64,000 bases of DNA from an uncultured Erysipelotrichaceae bacterium (GTDB lineage: Bacteria > Bacillota_I > Bacilli_A > Erysipelotrichales > Erysipelotrichaceae), in contig CAMCKH010000001.1 in assembly GCA_945875435.1 (NCBI GenBank), positions 124,001-188,000 of the forward strand, written 5' to 3'. Below the pieces are notes generated by a model, which saw only the letters and a program-made list of their open reading frames with translations, did not search any database and had not been told where the DNA came from. Below, in pieces: positions 14,948 to 62,067 of this stretch (position 1 is its first letter; each line of letters starts with the position of its first letter). A program made the position numbers and the translations under genes.

Positions 14948-15985
14948 ATGCAGGTAAACTTAAAAAATGTAACAAAAAAATTTAATGATTTTAAAGCTGT
15001 TAATAACTTTACTTTAACTTTTGAAGAAGGTGAATTAATTTGTCTTTTAGGCCCTAGTGGTTGTGGTAAAAGCACTCTTTTAAATATGATAAGCGGAATT
15101 ATTCCTGTAACAGAGGGAAAGATTTTTTTTGATGATAGAGATGTAACTAATTTAGCACCACAGCACAGAGAGATAGGATTAGTATTTCAAAATTATGCAC
15201 TATATCCTCATATGAGTGTATTAGAAAATATTAGTTTTCCATTAGAAATTAAAAAAGTAGAGAAAAAAGAAAGAGAAGCACTTGCTGTTGAGATGGCTAA
15301 ATTAGTAAAAGTGGATACTTTATTAGACCGCAAACCAGCAGAACTTTCAGGAGGTCAACAACAACGTGTTGCGATCGCTAGAGCTTTAATCAAAAAACCA
15401 AAAATATTGCTTTTAGATGAGCCGTTGAGTAATTTAGACGCCAGATTAAGATTGGAAATGAGAGAGGAAATTAGAAGGATTCAACAAGAAACAAAGGTAA
15501 CTACTATCTTCGTAACTCACGACCAAGAAGAAGCAATGTCAATAAGTGATAAAATAGTCTTAATGAAAGATGGGGTTTTAATGCAAGTAGATAAACCTCA
15601 GGTACTTTATGATAATCCACTTAAAGAATTTGTATCTACATTTTTAGGAAATCCTCCTATAAATACAATTAAAGGTAATTATAATAATGGTTTTTTTGAA
15701 TATAATAATCAAAAAATAAAATTAAACTACCACACTAACGAAGAAATAACTCTAGCTATCAGACCAGAAGCTATTGACTTTGATGAAGAAAATTACGATT
15801 TTAAAGCTGTAATCAAAGAAAGATTTAAAATAGGAAAAGAAGAGTTATTAATGCTTCAATTCAATGACTTATTATTAAGAACTTACGCAACTGATGAATT
15901 AAATAAAAATGTTGGTGACGAAATCGGACTTAAATTAAAAAACAAAGGTGTATTTATTTTTGATAATAAGGGTGATAGAAAATGA
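14948..15985 (+). CDS. carbohydrate-type ABC transporter ATPase (UgpC/MsmX/MalK family)
   Basis: The 345-residue protein has Walker A (GPSGCGKST), Q-loop (VFQNYALYPHM), signature (LSGGQQQRVAIARA), Walker B (LLLDEPLSNLD) and H-loop (VTHDQEEA), then a C-terminal MOBE/TOBE-type regulatory domain (about 235-340). This layout is typical of CUT1 sugar or glycerol-3-phosphate importers. It is followed directly by two permease genes, the first overlapping by four bases. The substrate is unknown. Confidence 0.93.
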   Translation: MQVNLKNVTKKFNDFKAVNNFTLTFEEGELICLLGPSGCGKSTLLNMISGIIPVTEGKIFFDDRDVTNLAPQHREIGLVFQNYALYPHMSVLENISFPLEIKKVEKKEREALAVEMAKLVKVDTLLDRKPAELSGGQQQRVAIARALIKKPKILLLDEPLSNLDARLRLEMREEIRRIQQETKVTTIFVTHDQEEAMSISDKIVLMKDGVLMQVDKPQVLYDNPLKEFVSTFLGNPPINTIKGNYNNGFFEYNNQKIKLNYHTNEEITLAIRPEAIDFDEENYDFKAVIKERFKIGKEELLMLQFNDLLLRTYATDELNKNVGDEIGLKLKNKGVFIFDNKGDRK

Positions 15986-16875
15986 GTAGGCAACAGTTTA
16001 GTTTAAACAATAAAATAGAACCTATCCTATACTTATCACCATTCTTCTTCGGTTTAATAATTTGGACTTTATACCCTTTTATAAATGTGTTGCTGATATC
16101 ATTTAAAGAAAATTATAATTTACTTACTGGTAGTTATAAAAATTTAGGATTAGGAAATTACATCTATGTATTAAATAATTTAAAATTTTTAAATGCATTG
16201 AGAAATACTGGTATTTATGTAATATTCACGGTTCCAATATCTACATTTTTAGCTTTAATATTCGCAAACTTATTAAACCAAAAATTAAAAGGAATCGCAT
16301 TATTTCAAACCGCATACTTCCTACCTTTAGTAACTAGTGCTACCGCAATTGGTCTTGTGTGGAAATTAATGTTTAACACTAACTTTGGTGCAATAAATCA
16401 AATACTAAGTTATCTAAATATATCCCCTATTCATTGGTTGGATTATCCAAAAAACAATATTTATACTTTAATAATTTTTGGGGTTTGGAATATTTTACCC
16501 TTCACCATAATATTATTACTTAGTGGTTTACAAAACATTAACCCTTTATACTATACGGTCGCAAAATTAGATGGGGCTAGTGATTTTAAAATTTTTAGAA
16601 GAATAACAATACCACTACTTTCTCCAACAATTGGATTAGTATTAATAATCAATACTATTTCTACATCAAAGGTATATAGCGAACTATTCCCTATTTTTAG
16701 TGGAAGACCTGGTATTGCTGATAATTTATATACAGTAGTCTATTATATTTATGATTTATTTTATGTAAAATGGGATTTAGGAAAAGCAGCTGCAGCTAGC
16801 GTTATTTTATTTTTAATCTTATTTGCTTTAACTTTATCACAACTACAAATACAAAAGAAATGGAAGCATTATTAA
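15982..16875 (+). CDS. ABC importer permease, UgpA/MalF-like
   Basis: The 297-residue membrane protein has about six helices and the EAA-loop signature in degenerate form (AKLDGASDFKIFRRITIPLLSP read as DGASDFKIFRRITIP), which contacts the ATPase. It is the first of a paired CUT1 permease set. It begins with an ATGA overlap to the ATPase gene. Confidence 0.92.
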   Translation: MSRQQFSLNNKIEPILYLSPFFFGLIIWTLYPFINVLLISFKENYNLLTGSYKNLGLGNYIYVLNNLKFLNALRNTGIYVIFTVPISTFLALIFANLLNQKLKGIALFQTAYFLPLVTSATAIGLVWKLMFNTNFGAINQILSYLNISPIHWLDYPKNNIYTLIIFGVWNILPFTIILLLSGLQNINPLYYTVAKLDGASDFKIFRRITIPLLSPTIGLVLIINTISTSKVYSELFPIFSGRPGIADNLYTVVYYIYDLFYVKWDLGKAAAASVILFLILFALTLSQLQIQKKWKHY

Positions 16876-16876
16876 T

Positions 16877-17698
16877 ATGAAAACGATAAAGAATTCAACT
16901 ATATATTTATTATTATTTCTAGGAGCTATTTTGATGGTTTTCCCTTTCTTTTACATGATAACCACTGCTCTTAAAACACCTCAAGAATTAACCGCATTTC
17001 CTCCTGTTTGGATACCTAAAAATATCTTTAATTTAGAAAATTTTAAATTAGCTTTAAAAGAAGCACCATTCTTAATCTATTTCTTAAATAGTGTAATTGT
17101 TACTATATGTTGTGTAGTAATAACTGGATTTACAACTATTGTAGCAGCGTTTGCTTTCAGTAGATTGAAATTTTTTGGTAGAGATTTAATTTTCTCATTA
17201 CTGCTATCATTAATGATGGTTCCCTTTGAAATGCTGATTATTACTAATTTTCAAACAATGGTAAGATTAAAACTCACAAACACTTTAATAGCTTTAATAA
17301 TACCATTTACTTCATCTATATTTTATACCTATATTTTAAGAAATTTCTTTTTAAGTATACCAGATTCTTTATATTATAGTGCTAGAATAGATGGTGCTAG
17401 TAATTGGAAATATCTTTGGAGAATAATGGTTCCTATCGCAAAACCTAGTTTATTCACCATAATGCTTTTAAATGCAATAAATTGTTGGAATTCATTTGTT
17501 TGGACAATGCTTGTTATAAACAATGATAACTTCAGAACTCTTCCTTTGGGTATTTATAAATTTTCAAGTGAAGGTGGTGCTGACTTTGAACTCATAATGG
17601 CAGGTAGCACTTTAATAGTTCTTCCAATGATCATCTTATTTTTATTCGCTAGAAAATATATTGTATCAGGAGTAAGTAGAGGGGGTCTTAAAGGATGA
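16877..17698 (+). CDS. ABC importer permease, UgpE/MalG-like
   Basis: The 273-residue permease has six predicted helices and the EAA-type loop ARIDGASNWKYLWRIMVP. It pairs with the preceding permease in a CUT1 importer. It ends in the GG-rich VSRGGLKG tail seen in MalG/UgpE. No gene for a substrate-binding lipoprotein is found before or after the set. Confidence 0.92.
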   Translation: MKTIKNSTIYLLLFLGAILMVFPFFYMITTALKTPQELTAFPPVWIPKNIFNLENFKLALKEAPFLIYFLNSVIVTICCVVITGFTTIVAAFAFSRLKFFGRDLIFSLLLSLMMVPFEMLIITNFQTMVRLKLTNTLIALIIPFTSSIFYTYILRNFFLSIPDSLYYSARIDGASNWKYLWRIMVPIAKPSLFTIMLLNAINCWNSFVWTMLVINNDNFRTLPLGIYKFSSEGGADFELIMAGSTLIVLPMIILFLFARKYIVSGVSRGGLKG

Positions 17699-18141
17699 AA
17701 TTATATTTAGCTGGTTCACTATTTAATGAAGCTGAAGTTGCTCAAAGAAAAAAAGAAGGAATAATACTTAGGGAAATATTTGAAAATTTAAAAATTTTTA
17801 ACCCTATCGATCAACCATTCAACGAAGATAAACAAACCCTACCTACCCCTTTAACAATATTTGAATCTGATACCAAAGAAGTTATTGATGCTGATATCTT
17901 TATTGCAGATATTACCAATGAAGATCCTGGCGTAATGGTAGAATTAGGAATCGCAATCGCAACCAACACCAAAATAATCATCGCGATAAATTCCGATATT
18001 AGATTAAAAAGTGCTAATAAATATCAAATACCTAGTTACAGTATCAATCATTATGTATTGGGTGGCATTGAAAAATATGGTCATCTTGTTTACTCTTTTG
18101 AAGAAGCTGTTGAATTATTAAAAAAATTAATCAAAAATTGA
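17695..18141 (+). CDS. nucleoside 2-deoxyribosyltransferase family protein
   Basis: The 148-residue protein matches the NDT/COG3613 fold: MKLYLAGSLFNEAE at the start, a DADIFIADITNEDPG segment and the catalytic-type glutamate in VMVELGIA. These enzymes swap or hydrolyse bases on deoxyribonucleosides. It overlaps the second permease by four bases (ATGA), so it belongs to the importer operon and may act on what is imported, for example a nucleoside; this is inference. Confidence 0.85.
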   Translation: MKLYLAGSLFNEAEVAQRKKEGIILREIFENLKIFNPIDQPFNEDKQTLPTPLTIFESDTKEVIDADIFIADITNEDPGVMVELGIAIATNTKIIIAINSDIRLKSANKYQIPSYSINHYVLGGIEKYGHLVYSFEEAVELLKKLIKN

Positions 18142-58959: not shown

Positions 58960-60072
58960 ATGAAAAAATTAAAATTAATGACAATTTTAGGAACAAGACC
59001 TGAAATAATTAGACTTTCTGCAGTGATTAGAAAGTGTGATTTATATTTCAATCATATTTTAGTTCATACAGGACAAAATTATGATTATGAATTAAATGAG
59101 ATTTTCTTTAATCAACTCAATTTAAGAAAACCTGATTATTTTTTAAATTGTGCTGGAAAAAATTTAGGTGAATCAATGGGTAATATCATATCAAAATCCT
59201 ATGATATTATAATCAAAGAAAAACCAGATGCAGTGTTAATTTTAGGAGATACTAATAGTGCTTTAAGTGCTATTAGTGCTAAAAGATTGAAAACTCCAAT
59301 TTTTCATATGGAAGCAGGAAATAGATGTTGGGATTGGAATGTTCCTGAGATGATTAATAGAACGATTGTAGATCATATCAGTGATATTAATTTACCATAC
59401 AGCGAAAATTCTAGAAGATATCTTTTAAACGAAGGAATAGATGGTAAAACTATTTTTGTAACAGGAAGTCCAATGTATGAAGTTATTAACGAAAATTTAG
59501 ATCATATAAATAATTCCAATATTCTTAACGAATTAAATTTAAAAAATAATAATTATTTTGTTGTATCTGCACATAGAGAAGAAAATATTGATAATGAAAC
59601 AAACTTTTTAACATTAATGAATTCTTTAAATGAAATAGCTGAAAAATATCAAATGCCTATAATTTATTCTACTCATCCTAGAAGTAAAAAAATAATAGAA
59701 AAAAATAATTTCAAATTTCATAAATTGATTAAAAATATAGCTCCTGTAGGATTTTTTGATTATAATAAACTTCAAAAAAATGCCTTTTGTGTTTTAAGTG
59801 ATAGTGGAACTTTAAGTGAGGAATCATCAATTTTAAATTTTAAGGCTGTATTAATCAGAACTTCTACTGAAAGACCTGAGGCTCTTGATTCTGGAAGTAT
59901 TGTTGTGGGAGGAATTGATTTTAAAAATATCGATAATGCTATAAACATAGCAGTAAATTCTAAAATAACATCAATCCCTCAAGATTATACTTGCGATGTT
60001 TCTGATAAAGTTGTCAGAATAATTCAAAGTTATACTGATATTATCAATATTACTGTATGGAAAAAGAAATAA
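58960..60072 (+). CDS. capG: UDP-N-acetylglucosamine 2-epimerase family enzyme, CapG-like
   Basis: The 370-residue enzyme has the WecB fold motifs LGTRPEIIRLSAVI, HTGQNYDYELNEIFF, GDTNSALSAI, SAHREENIDN and SGTLSEESSIL. Its place after capF suggests CapG/WbjD, which finishes UDP-L-FucNAc; plain WecB activity (UDP-ManNAc) is the alternative. AAGGAG precedes the ATG. Confidence 0.88.
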   Translation: MKKLKLMTILGTRPEIIRLSAVIRKCDLYFNHILVHTGQNYDYELNEIFFNQLNLRKPDYFLNCAGKNLGESMGNIISKSYDIIIKEKPDAVLILGDTNSALSAISAKRLKTPIFHMEAGNRCWDWNVPEMINRTIVDHISDINLPYSENSRRYLLNEGIDGKTIFVTGSPMYEVINENLDHINNSNILNELNLKNNNYFVVSAHREENIDNETNFLTLMNSLNEIAEKYQMPIIYSTHPRSKKIIEKNNFKFHKLIKNIAPVGFFDYNKLQKNAFCVLSDSGTLSEESSILNFKAVLIRTSTERPEALDSGSIVVGGIDFKNIDNAINIAVNSKITSIPQDYTCDVSDKVVRIIQSYTDIINITVWKKK

Positions 60073-61286
60073 ATATGTTTGTGGTTACTGGTATGTTTGT
60101 TCCAAGTAACGATACAGTAACTATCTTAAATTATAAAAGACTAAAAAATCTTGACTTAAAATTTGATGTATTTGCTTTAAAAAGTAATTTTGATAATTCA
60201 ATTGTTAAAGAATTAGAAAATGATGAAGATTTTAAGAAATTTAATATTGAATATTTTAAAAATTATGATGAGCTGATAACTATAAATAAACCGTACTTAT
60301 TAATTTTAGGATTATTTAATATGATATTGTTTGTATATAAAGCAATTAAAAAATTTGAAAGCAAACCTTACAAATATCTCTACACCTCTTCAATACCAGG
60401 GATAAGTCATATTATCGGTTATTTTATCAAAAAAAAATATAAAGATGTGATTTGGATAGCTTCTTTTAGTGATCCTATCTATAAATCACCTTATAAAAAT
60501 GATCCAAACTTAAAACAAAGATCATTATTATATCAGTTGATGTTTAAAGTTGGTAGTTTTATTTTTATGAATGATATTTTTGAAAAACTACCTATAAAAT
60601 ATGCGGATAAATTGATATTTATTTGCGAACATCAGAAAAACTTCACTTTATCTTTATACCCAAACAAAAAAGAGTTGGAATTAAAAAGTAAAATTATGCC
60701 ACTTACTTATCTAAAAAAATGGTCAATTTATCAAAAATTAATCGAAAACAAAAATAAAACCAACACCAAATTAACAATAAGCCATTTAGGAAGATTATAT
60801 GGACTAAGAAAAATCGATTCTTTAATTGATGCCTTGATTAAATTAAAACAAGAAATTCCAAACTTAGAAAACATGTTGCTCATCAATCAATATAGCGAAA
60901 TTCAAAAAGAAGATGTTAAAAAAATAAAACAACATGGATTAGAAAATATTTTTATAATAAATCCTAAAGTTAATTATCAACAATCTTTAGAAGTTATGTG
61001 TAATAGCGATGTTCTTCTGCTATGCGATACAATAATGGAAAATGAAAAAATACAACCATACTTACCTTCTAAAATTATTGAATATTTACTATTGAAAAAA
61101 CCAATTTTAACTATTTCATTGCCAAATAGTCCTGCTTATACAATCTTACAAAAATATAAACAAAATTTTATCAGCAACGATAGCGAAGAAATCAAAGAAT
61201 TTTTAAAAAAATTTCTTCTAGATATTCCTAGTTATAATTATTCTATTGAAGAACTGGAAAATTCTAATTTCAATTTACTAAAATAA
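60057..61286 (+). CDS. glycosyltransferase (GT4-like)
   Basis: The 409-residue protein looks like a GT-B fold glycosyltransferase, with a C-terminal donor-binding half (about 225-375): LTISHLGRLYGLRKIDSL and PSKIIEYLLLKKPIL. It overlaps capG by 16 bases; a second ATG at 60075 has a weak GGAAAAAG before it and may be the true start. It probably adds L-FucNAc or a neighbouring sugar to the repeat unit; donor and acceptor are unknown. Confidence 0.8.
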   Translation: MEKEINMFVVTGMFVPSNDTVTILNYKRLKNLDLKFDVFALKSNFDNSIVKELENDEDFKKFNIEYFKNYDELITINKPYLLILGLFNMILFVYKAIKKFESKPYKYLYTSSIPGISHIIGYFIKKKYKDVIWIASFSDPIYKSPYKNDPNLKQRSLLYQLMFKVGSFIFMNDIFEKLPIKYADKLIFICEHQKNFTLSLYPNKKELELKSKIMPLTYLKKWSIYQKLIENKNKTNTKLTISHLGRLYGLRKIDSLIDALIKLKQEIPNLENMLLINQYSEIQKEDVKKIKQHGLENIFIINPKVNYQQSLEVMCNSDVLLLCDTIMENEKIQPYLPSKIIEYLLLKKPILTISLPNSPAYTILQKYKQNFISNDSEEIKEFLKKFLLDIPSYNYSIEELENSNFNLLK

Positions 61287-61331
61287 CATATTTTCACAAA
61301 ATTAAAACAAATTTTAAACAATTTTATTTAA

Positions 61332-61337
61332 TATAAT
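61332..61337 (+). promoter_or_regulatory. -10 element of the small RNA
   Basis: A perfect TATAAT lies five bases before the 5' hairpin of the RNA. No good -35 is visible, so activation by a factor is possible. Confidence 0.5.
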
Positions 61338-61341
61338 AAAC

Positions 61342-61448
61342 ATGTAGGAAGATAATAATCCTACATAATGGCAAATAAGATTCCCCCTTATCTTATTTGT
61401 TTCATATTCTATCCCCTTATAAGAAAAAGAGCTATAAGCTCTTTTTTT
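61342..61448 (+). ncRNA. C-rich small RNA, RoxS/RsaE-like architecture
   Basis: Between the glycosyltransferase and trmB lies a roughly 105-base unit with no reading frame. It has an eight-pair 5' hairpin (61342-61349 with 61359-61366), a ten-pair perfect stem (61372-61381 with 61390-61399) whose loop is TCCCCCTT, a single-stranded stretch with TATCCCCTTAT (61410-61420), and a strong terminator. Two exposed CCCC-UU motifs, one in a loop and one before the terminator, are the layout of RoxS/RsaE and other C-rich sRNAs that pair with ribosome binding sites. Sequence identity to RoxS was not tested. Confidence 0.7.
61424..61446. terminator. terminator of the small RNA and, on the other strand, trmB
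   Basis: A ten-base-pair stem (61424-61433 with 61437-61446, core GAGCT) has a three-base loop and T-runs on both strands. It stops the small RNA and trmB, which ends four bases away. Confidence 0.85.
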
Positions 61449-61449
61449 G

Positions 61450-62067
61450 TTATTTCTTTGCTAAAATATAATAAATATTCATATTTTCTGCCATAAATTT
61501 CTTTTCATAACCAGTAAATATAGTGGATTTGAATTCTTTATGAAAATCCTTACTGTTATGGATTATATTTAACTTAAAAAAATTAAATTCTTCTAAACTA
61601 AATTCATACAAATTTTGATTATCGGTTTTAAAATAAATAAATCCTTCTTTTGCAAGTATTTTATCGTAACGATTTAAAAAATCTCTGTATGTAAGTCTTC
61701 TCTTATAATAACCCGATTTTTTCCAAGGATCACTAAATAATAAGTATATTCCATCAAAAATAACATCTTCAAACCATATAGAAATATTATTAGCATTATC
61801 ATTTATAAAAAATAAATTAGTTAATCCTAACTCTTTGGTTTTCTTTATGCAATTAGCAACACAAGTCGGATCTTTTTCATAACCTATATATAAAATATCA
61901 GGGTTTTGTTTAGCACTTTCCGTAATAAAATCACCTAACCCGCAACCTATTTCAAGATATTTAATTTTAAAATCATTAAAAAATTGAAATTGTTTTTTAT
62001 CTTTTAACAAAATAATATTTTCATTTTCTAAATATGGCATTACCCATTTTTTTCTTCTCATTCTCAT
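61450..62067 (-). CDS. trmB: tRNA (guanine-N7-)-methyltransferase
   Basis: The 205-residue enzyme has the TrmB SAM motif YLEIGCGLGDFI, the catalytic SDPWKKSGYYKRRLTY and a C-terminal FTGYEKKF. It makes m7G46 in tRNA. No ribosome binding site; TAAAAT lies six bases before the ATG. Confidence 0.95.
   Translation of the reverse strand: MRMRRKKWVMPYLENENIILLKDKKQFQFFNDFKIKYLEIGCGLGDFITESAKQNPDILYIGYEKDPTCVANCIKKTKELGLTNLFFINDNANNISIWFEDVIFDGIYLLFSDPWKKSGYYKRRLTYRDFLNRYDKILAKEGFIYFKTDNQNLYEFSLEEFNFFKLNIIHNSKDFHKEFKSTIFTGYEKKFMAENMNIYYILAKK

Follow-up and report, generated by a model that had tools for sequence, protein, structure and literature searches.

A multicopy family of C-rich small RNAs in Erysipelotrichaceae with a conserved promoter box and predicted pairing to Shine-Dalgarno sites

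The stretch of DNA analysed here (64,000 nucleotides, hereafter the window) belongs to the genome of an uncultured Erysipelotrichaceae bacterium, available as 1.17 Mb in 20 contigs. Between a glycosyltransferase gene (60057-61286, + strand), which looks like the end of a polysaccharide cluster, and a trmB-like methyltransferase gene (61450-62067, - strand), to which it is convergent, lies a small RNA (sRNA) gene whose elements are collected in Table 1. An earlier note on this DNA had described a TATAAT element, a 5' hairpin, a C-rich loop, a single-stranded C-rich stretch and a terminator, and all of these were found in the sequence and in the predicted fold; the stem of hairpin 2 is perfect, as had been stated, with twelve pairs instead of ten. 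The minimum free energy of the sRNA is -31.4 kcal/mol (z = -6.4), a value as low being given by 0 of 200 shuffled sequences, and the terminator is the sole one in the surrounding 320 bases, where 0.0 are expected by chance. According to these predictions the unit is a free-standing RNA gene ending in a terminator. The hairpin-2 loop TCCCCCTT is its first candidate C-rich anti-Shine-Dalgarno (anti-SD) site, and the core ATTCTATCCCCTTATAA, taken together with CAT at 61403-61405, is complementary to AAGGGGATAGAATATG. The loop of hairpin 1 (61350-61358 in the window copy) is A-rich, with a AATAATAA stretch that recurs though the stem varies; it may bind something.

Table 1. Elements of the sRNA gene and its predicted targets, in window coordinates
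Feature	Position	Strand	Basis or remark
Putative regulator box TAACATATTTTCACAAAAT (family consensus TCACATAATTTNACATAAT)	61284..61302	+	58 nt before RNA 5' end
-10 element TATAAT, without a good -35	61332..61337	+	sequence
sRNA gene, ~107 nt, copy 1 of 2 in the genome	61342..61448	+	covariance models R2 (built without it) and R3
Hairpin 1, 8 pairs, A-rich loop	61342..61366	+	fold; stem arms 61342-61349/61359-61366
Hairpin 2, 12 pairs, 8-nt loop TCCCCCTT	61370..61401	+	fold; arms 61370-61381/61390-61401, loop 61382-61389
Unpaired linker, 20 nt, holding TATCCCCTTAT	61402..61421	+	fold
Core ATTCTATCCCCTTATAA, mostly unpaired, putative main anti-SD/anti-start site	61406..61422	+	fold and family conservation
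Rho-independent terminator, 12 pairs	61422..61448	+	fold and terminator search
Predicted target: RBS and start AATAAGGGTGATAGAAAATG of ABC permease gene 15982-16875	15965..15984	+	duplex -22.5 kcal/mol
Secondary predicted target: RBS AGAGGGGGTCTTAAAGGATG of gene 17695-18141, operon of permease 15982	17678..17697	+	pairing

Runs of C had been called very rare in this DNA. Counted on both strands of the window, CCCC occurs 58 times against 73 expected and CCCCC 9 times against 12. Such runs are uncommon, yet no rarer than dinucleotide composition predicts, so the argument for the sRNA does not rest on their rarity.

The core, with at most one mismatch, was matched in 74 of 295 genomes of the order, among them those of Dielma fastidiosa (G024), Holdemania filiformis (G197) and Holdemania massiliensis (G182). 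Matches inside coding sequence (L033-L037, L061, L067, L076 and L096) were discarded as members, which left 73 non-redundant loci with the same anatomy. The second copy of the source genome lies on contig C13 (19219-19332, minus strand). Core matches reach five in one genome (G110) and three in another (G030); tandem pairs and triplets of the sRNA occur at L005, L097, L100 and L101, and at L068 four model matches fall within about 1.1 kb. A first covariance model (MAFFT alignment, automatic structure) was dropped, as it kept merely 5 pairs. The model R2, built from eight members with the window sequence left out, recovered the window copy at E = 1.2e-10, the next match in the window having E = 0.29, and the model R3 matched that copy as well. 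The window copy has all the parts of this Erysipelotrichaceae C-rich family as modelled by R2 and R3, namely hairpin 1, a hairpin 2 with a C-rich loop, the core, the terminator and the upstream box. At two loci (L260 and L261, in two genomes) copies with the core CTTCTATCCCCTTAA stand directly upstream of a gene with a DJ-1/PfpI-like product, a conserved neighbourhood that the window copy does not share.

At E <= 1e-4 the model R3 matched in 26 of 394 genomes of the class, all of them Erysipelotrichaceae, plus one genome of a sister family, and a search of 344 genomes of the phylum gave 16 Erysipelotrichaceae matches and the same sister-family genome. In the latter (G039) the minus strand of L229 carries, at 1500-1620, a unit (TTTCCCTTCCC) that is C-rich and ends in a terminator; it scores with R3, does not contain the core, and is possibly a distant relative of the family. 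Exact core matches were also collected across 84,980 species genomes. With R2 the named Erysipelotrichaceae loci score at least 31 bits, a second copy in L114 being the exception with 24 bits; of the exact matches outside (Peribacillus, Staphylococcus caeli, Clostridium and others) none exceeds 26 bits, and these were not taken as members. The family hardly occurs outside Erysipelotrichaceae, its carriers being relatives of Holdemania and Dielma from the gut, and it was found neither in Rfam nor in the literature searched.

The secondary structure appears to be maintained while the stem sequence varies freely. In an alignment of 64 members with 33 pairs, which was fitted to the structure and to that extent favours it, 89.2% of the cells are in standard pairs against 55.9% after shuffling, 707 cells against 223 are changed on both sides, and the covariation score, 0.755, drops to 0.217 on shuffling and to 0.154 or less in slid controls. 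Compensatory changes are present in every one of the 33 pairs. In helix 1 of the alignment (hairpin 1) all 9 of 9 pairs are changed on both sides and 84% are paired, helices 2-3 correspond to hairpin 2, and helix 4 (the terminator) is 95% paired. When 76 members were folded singly, two hairpins preceded the core in 67 and the terminator hairpin was formed in all 76; the last loop before the core, that of hairpin 2, carried CCC or CTCC in 67 of the 76, and the mean unpaired probability of the core was 0.85. Most core letters are 0.9-1.0 identical, the stem columns being far less conserved, though this near-invariance is partly one of ascertainment because most members were gathered by their core. 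Two C-rich sites are found in the window copy, and 21 of the 76 members have CCCC in their terminator loop. In the Traorella/Dielma lineage (L101, L097, L005, L068) the sequence of this loop is TCCCCTAG or TTCCCCTGA, which adds a third C-rich site comparable to that of LhrC. Both C-rich motifs and the stems are hence kept in relatives, over dozens of genomes and with compensatory stem changes, as the earlier note had asked of them, and this comparative evidence backs its proposal of a C-rich sRNA of anti-SD design.

When the regions upstream of the members were printed without a prior motif, the box TCACATAATTTNACATAAT emerged, a direct repeat with a 10-bp step. In 69 of 76 members it is placed 56 to 62 nt upstream of the RNA 5' end, and a third half-site follows some 11 bp further on. 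The box of the window copy matches at 15 of 18 positions; chance alone would give about two matches with three mismatches in 64 kb, both strands counted, and one at a given fixed place with a probability of about 1e-4. ACAA-type half-sites continue past it at steps of about 11 bp as far as about 61323. In 58 genomes of the family 61 box matches were counted against 2 for the reversed control. Hexamers resembling a -10 element occupy the same place in other members, and the window promoter does not have a consensus -35, as in activator-dependent promoters. Half-sites like ACATAA, repeated every 10-11 bp, are characteristic of response regulators of the OmpR/PhoB type. To judge by its repeat pattern, the box is most likely recognised by a two-component response regulator of the OmpR type. 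In the source genome just two such regulators are encoded, both next to a histidine kinase gene, and neither reached an equivalog cut-off in NCBIfam.

Several of the box matches lead to other short, C-rich RNAs ending in a terminator (in the roughly 300 nt from the box at L236, L246, L253, L258, L259, L263 and L264), and alternative pyrimidine-rich cores, CTCTCTCCCC, TTTCTCCCTTTC and ACTTCCTTCCTTGTAG, were noted behind it. These RNAs with other cores are apparently further sRNAs of one regulon, to judge by the box that they have in common. Some box matches precede protein genes instead.

Regarding the mRNAs with which the RNA could pair, CATATTCTATCCCCTTAT is the reverse complement of AUAAGGGGAUAGAAUAUG, that is, of a Shine-Dalgarno site, a spacer and a start codon, and a gene start nearly identical to the latter belongs to an MFS gene in genome G033. 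The pattern AAGGGGATAG-N(1-6)-ATG occurs in 51 of 116 genomes, above the reversed control, partly as the antisense of the sRNAs themselves. A search through AAGGGGATAG-N-ATG for a conserved single target gave no mRNA that recurs across species; the serS-like, transporter, TsaE-like and aminotransferase-like genes starting in this way are unrelated and were set aside. In the window the best partner of the core, its own complement apart, is the ribosome-binding site (RBS) of the permease gene (Pfam BPD_transp_1), a duplex energy equalled by 2 of 1000 shuffles keeping CCCC. An ABC ATPase gene precedes the permease gene in what appears to be one operon; as the second gene, the permease gene fits the expectation, voiced in the earlier note, of action on SD-bearing internal operon genes. 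The best gene-start partner of copy 2 in the window, 17695, is in that same operon. Elsewhere in the genome AAGGGG sites stand before PTS EIIA-like, DegV/FakA-like and purine-permease-like genes and before a gene for a secreted protein (names read from the sequences), the last with a duplex of -20.1 kcal/mol. The duplexes point to the sugar-type ABC-transporter operon as a likely target in the source genome, and the sRNA probably blocks translation initiation at AAGGGG-type sites, those of sugar-uptake genes included. About half of the 61 gene starts of the window have no recognisable SD. A TATAAT-like box 6-9 nt before the start codon, again with no SD, was observed at window positions 511, 18176, 33562 and 56384, as in leaderless mRNAs.

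The comparison of the new family with known sRNAs showed likenesses of design. Like RoxS/RsaE (RF01820; PMC4409812) it has C-rich regions able to cover Shine-Dalgarno sites, and at least two unpaired C-rich sites complementary to SD are found in the window sRNA; RoxS/RsaE, which is controlled by ResD/SrrA, differs in its core, and RF01820 does not match the new family. With LhrC1-5 of Listeria (RF00616; PMC4132741) it shares the multicopy arrangement, a regulator-responsive element (presumed in the new family) at about -55 to -75, and UCCC sites in hairpin loop and linker, to which 21 of 76 members add one in the terminator loop as LhrC does, whereas the sequence is another one and the member loci gave no Rfam match. 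The streptococcal csRNAs of the CiaRH regulon (PMC3091779) are likewise several paralogous, independently transcribed sRNAs of one bacterial group, in which hairpins flank an unpaired stretch complementary to SD and start codon; the new paralogues have such a stretch, CATATTCTATCCCCTT being complementary to AAGGGGATAGAATATG. In both cases a direct repeat in the promoter is read by an OmpR-type regulator, a point presumed for the new family. The CiaR repeat TTTAAG-N5-TTTAAG was not found upstream, the conserved element being TCACATAATTTNACATAAT with its 10-bp step; three hairpins, a CCCC core plus loop and another bacterial family are further differences. No sequence sharing with RoxS/RsaE, LhrC or the csRNAs was seen. 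In 20 member loci no Rfam family, LhrC included, reached its gathering score. Weak Rfam matches (rli61, scoring 26 bits where the gathering score is 50, and patAB antisense to one terminator) were taken as chance; a search with RF00616 across the class gave no match anywhere and was uninformative, its controls being equally silent. In design the RNAs come nearest to LhrC of Listeria and the csRNAs of streptococci, to which they are at least as close as to RoxS/RsaE, and they form a new family of a known sRNA kind that perhaps evolved independently.

It is very unlikely that the RNA is a RoxS/RsaE orthologue that has diverged past recognition by the Rfam model. The theme of several single-stranded C-rich sites is common to both, both groups are in the class Bacilli, and RoxS has a conserved response-regulator site, that of ResD/SrrA, near -65 (PMC4409812), all of which would suit such an origin. 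RF01820, however, is silent in the source genome and matches in the B. subtilis control, six member loci searched up to E = 5 contained no RsaE match, and among the 394 genomes of the class no member lies outside Erysipelotrichaceae save the one doubtful sister-family match. The designation RoxS/RsaE-like used in the earlier note is acceptable as an analogy in C-rich anti-SD design and is not supported as a statement of membership. RoxS/RsaE is not known to be a tandem multicopy family.

A role mainly as a sponge or decoy, in which the conserved core would be the binding site of a protein or another RNA, would account for a core kept over 17 nt, beyond the need of an anti-SD, and for the lack of a recurrent target among the complementary gene starts; it is nevertheless unlikely, for the complement of the core reads as Shine-Dalgarno site, spacer and start codon, the second C-rich site is retained in the hairpin-2 loop of most members, and the box is common to variants with other SD-complementary sequences. 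The tandem or multiple copies per genome, and the position of the window terminator between convergent genes, might also call to mind a dispersed mobile or repetitive element, or a mere strong bidirectional terminator between the glycosyltransferase gene and trmB. This is hardly credible, as the stems differ among copies with compensatory changes, the unit has its own promoter with the box at a fixed distance, and termination does not need hairpins 1 and 2.

Considering the computed gene anatomy, the family with its covariation and its restriction to Erysipelotrichaceae, the conserved promoter box and the RBS complementarity, the gene very probably encodes a paralogous, trans-acting C-rich sRNA of a new Erysipelotrichaceae family, driven most likely by an OmpR-type regulator and predicted to pair with the SD sites of chosen mRNAs. 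We infer that it is transcribed under this kind of regulator and represses particular targets in the following manner. A transcription factor (OmpR-type response regulators being the likeliest class) would occupy the direct ACATAA half-sites, which recur every 10-11 bp ahead of the -10 region, and so switch on the RNA of about 107 nt. The two hairpins and the terminator would hold and protect it and would expose its C-rich stretches, one in the loop of hairpin 2, one in the linker and, for some lineages, one more in the loop of the terminator. Through the core in its linker the RNA would pair with selected mRNAs at AAGGGG-type Shine-Dalgarno sites, the spacer and frequently the AUG as well, by which 30S binding would be blocked and decay perhaps made faster.

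It is tempting to go further and to suppose that one Erysipelotrichaceae regulator drives a fast-evolving set of C-rich anti-SD sRNAs, made up of the present core family and the RNAs with other cores behind the common box, which selectively tune the genes that use SD sites, for instance those for sugar uptake inside operons, many first genes being seemingly leaderless, as an independent counterpart of the CiaR-csRNA system; we regard this wider reading as tentative, with the balance slightly against it.

No regulatory sRNA described for Erysipelotrichaceae was found in the literature searched, and the papers on ncRNA discovery that were found mention the family for other motifs only. For these common gut bacteria an sRNA family is now defined with a covariance model. 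The promoter box should lead to the regulator, for which the two OmpR-type proteins of the genome are the candidates, and the targets can be tested. A multicopy set of C-rich sRNAs under what seems to be a response regulator would be an apparently independent case within the Bacilli, and bears on the origin of such networks.
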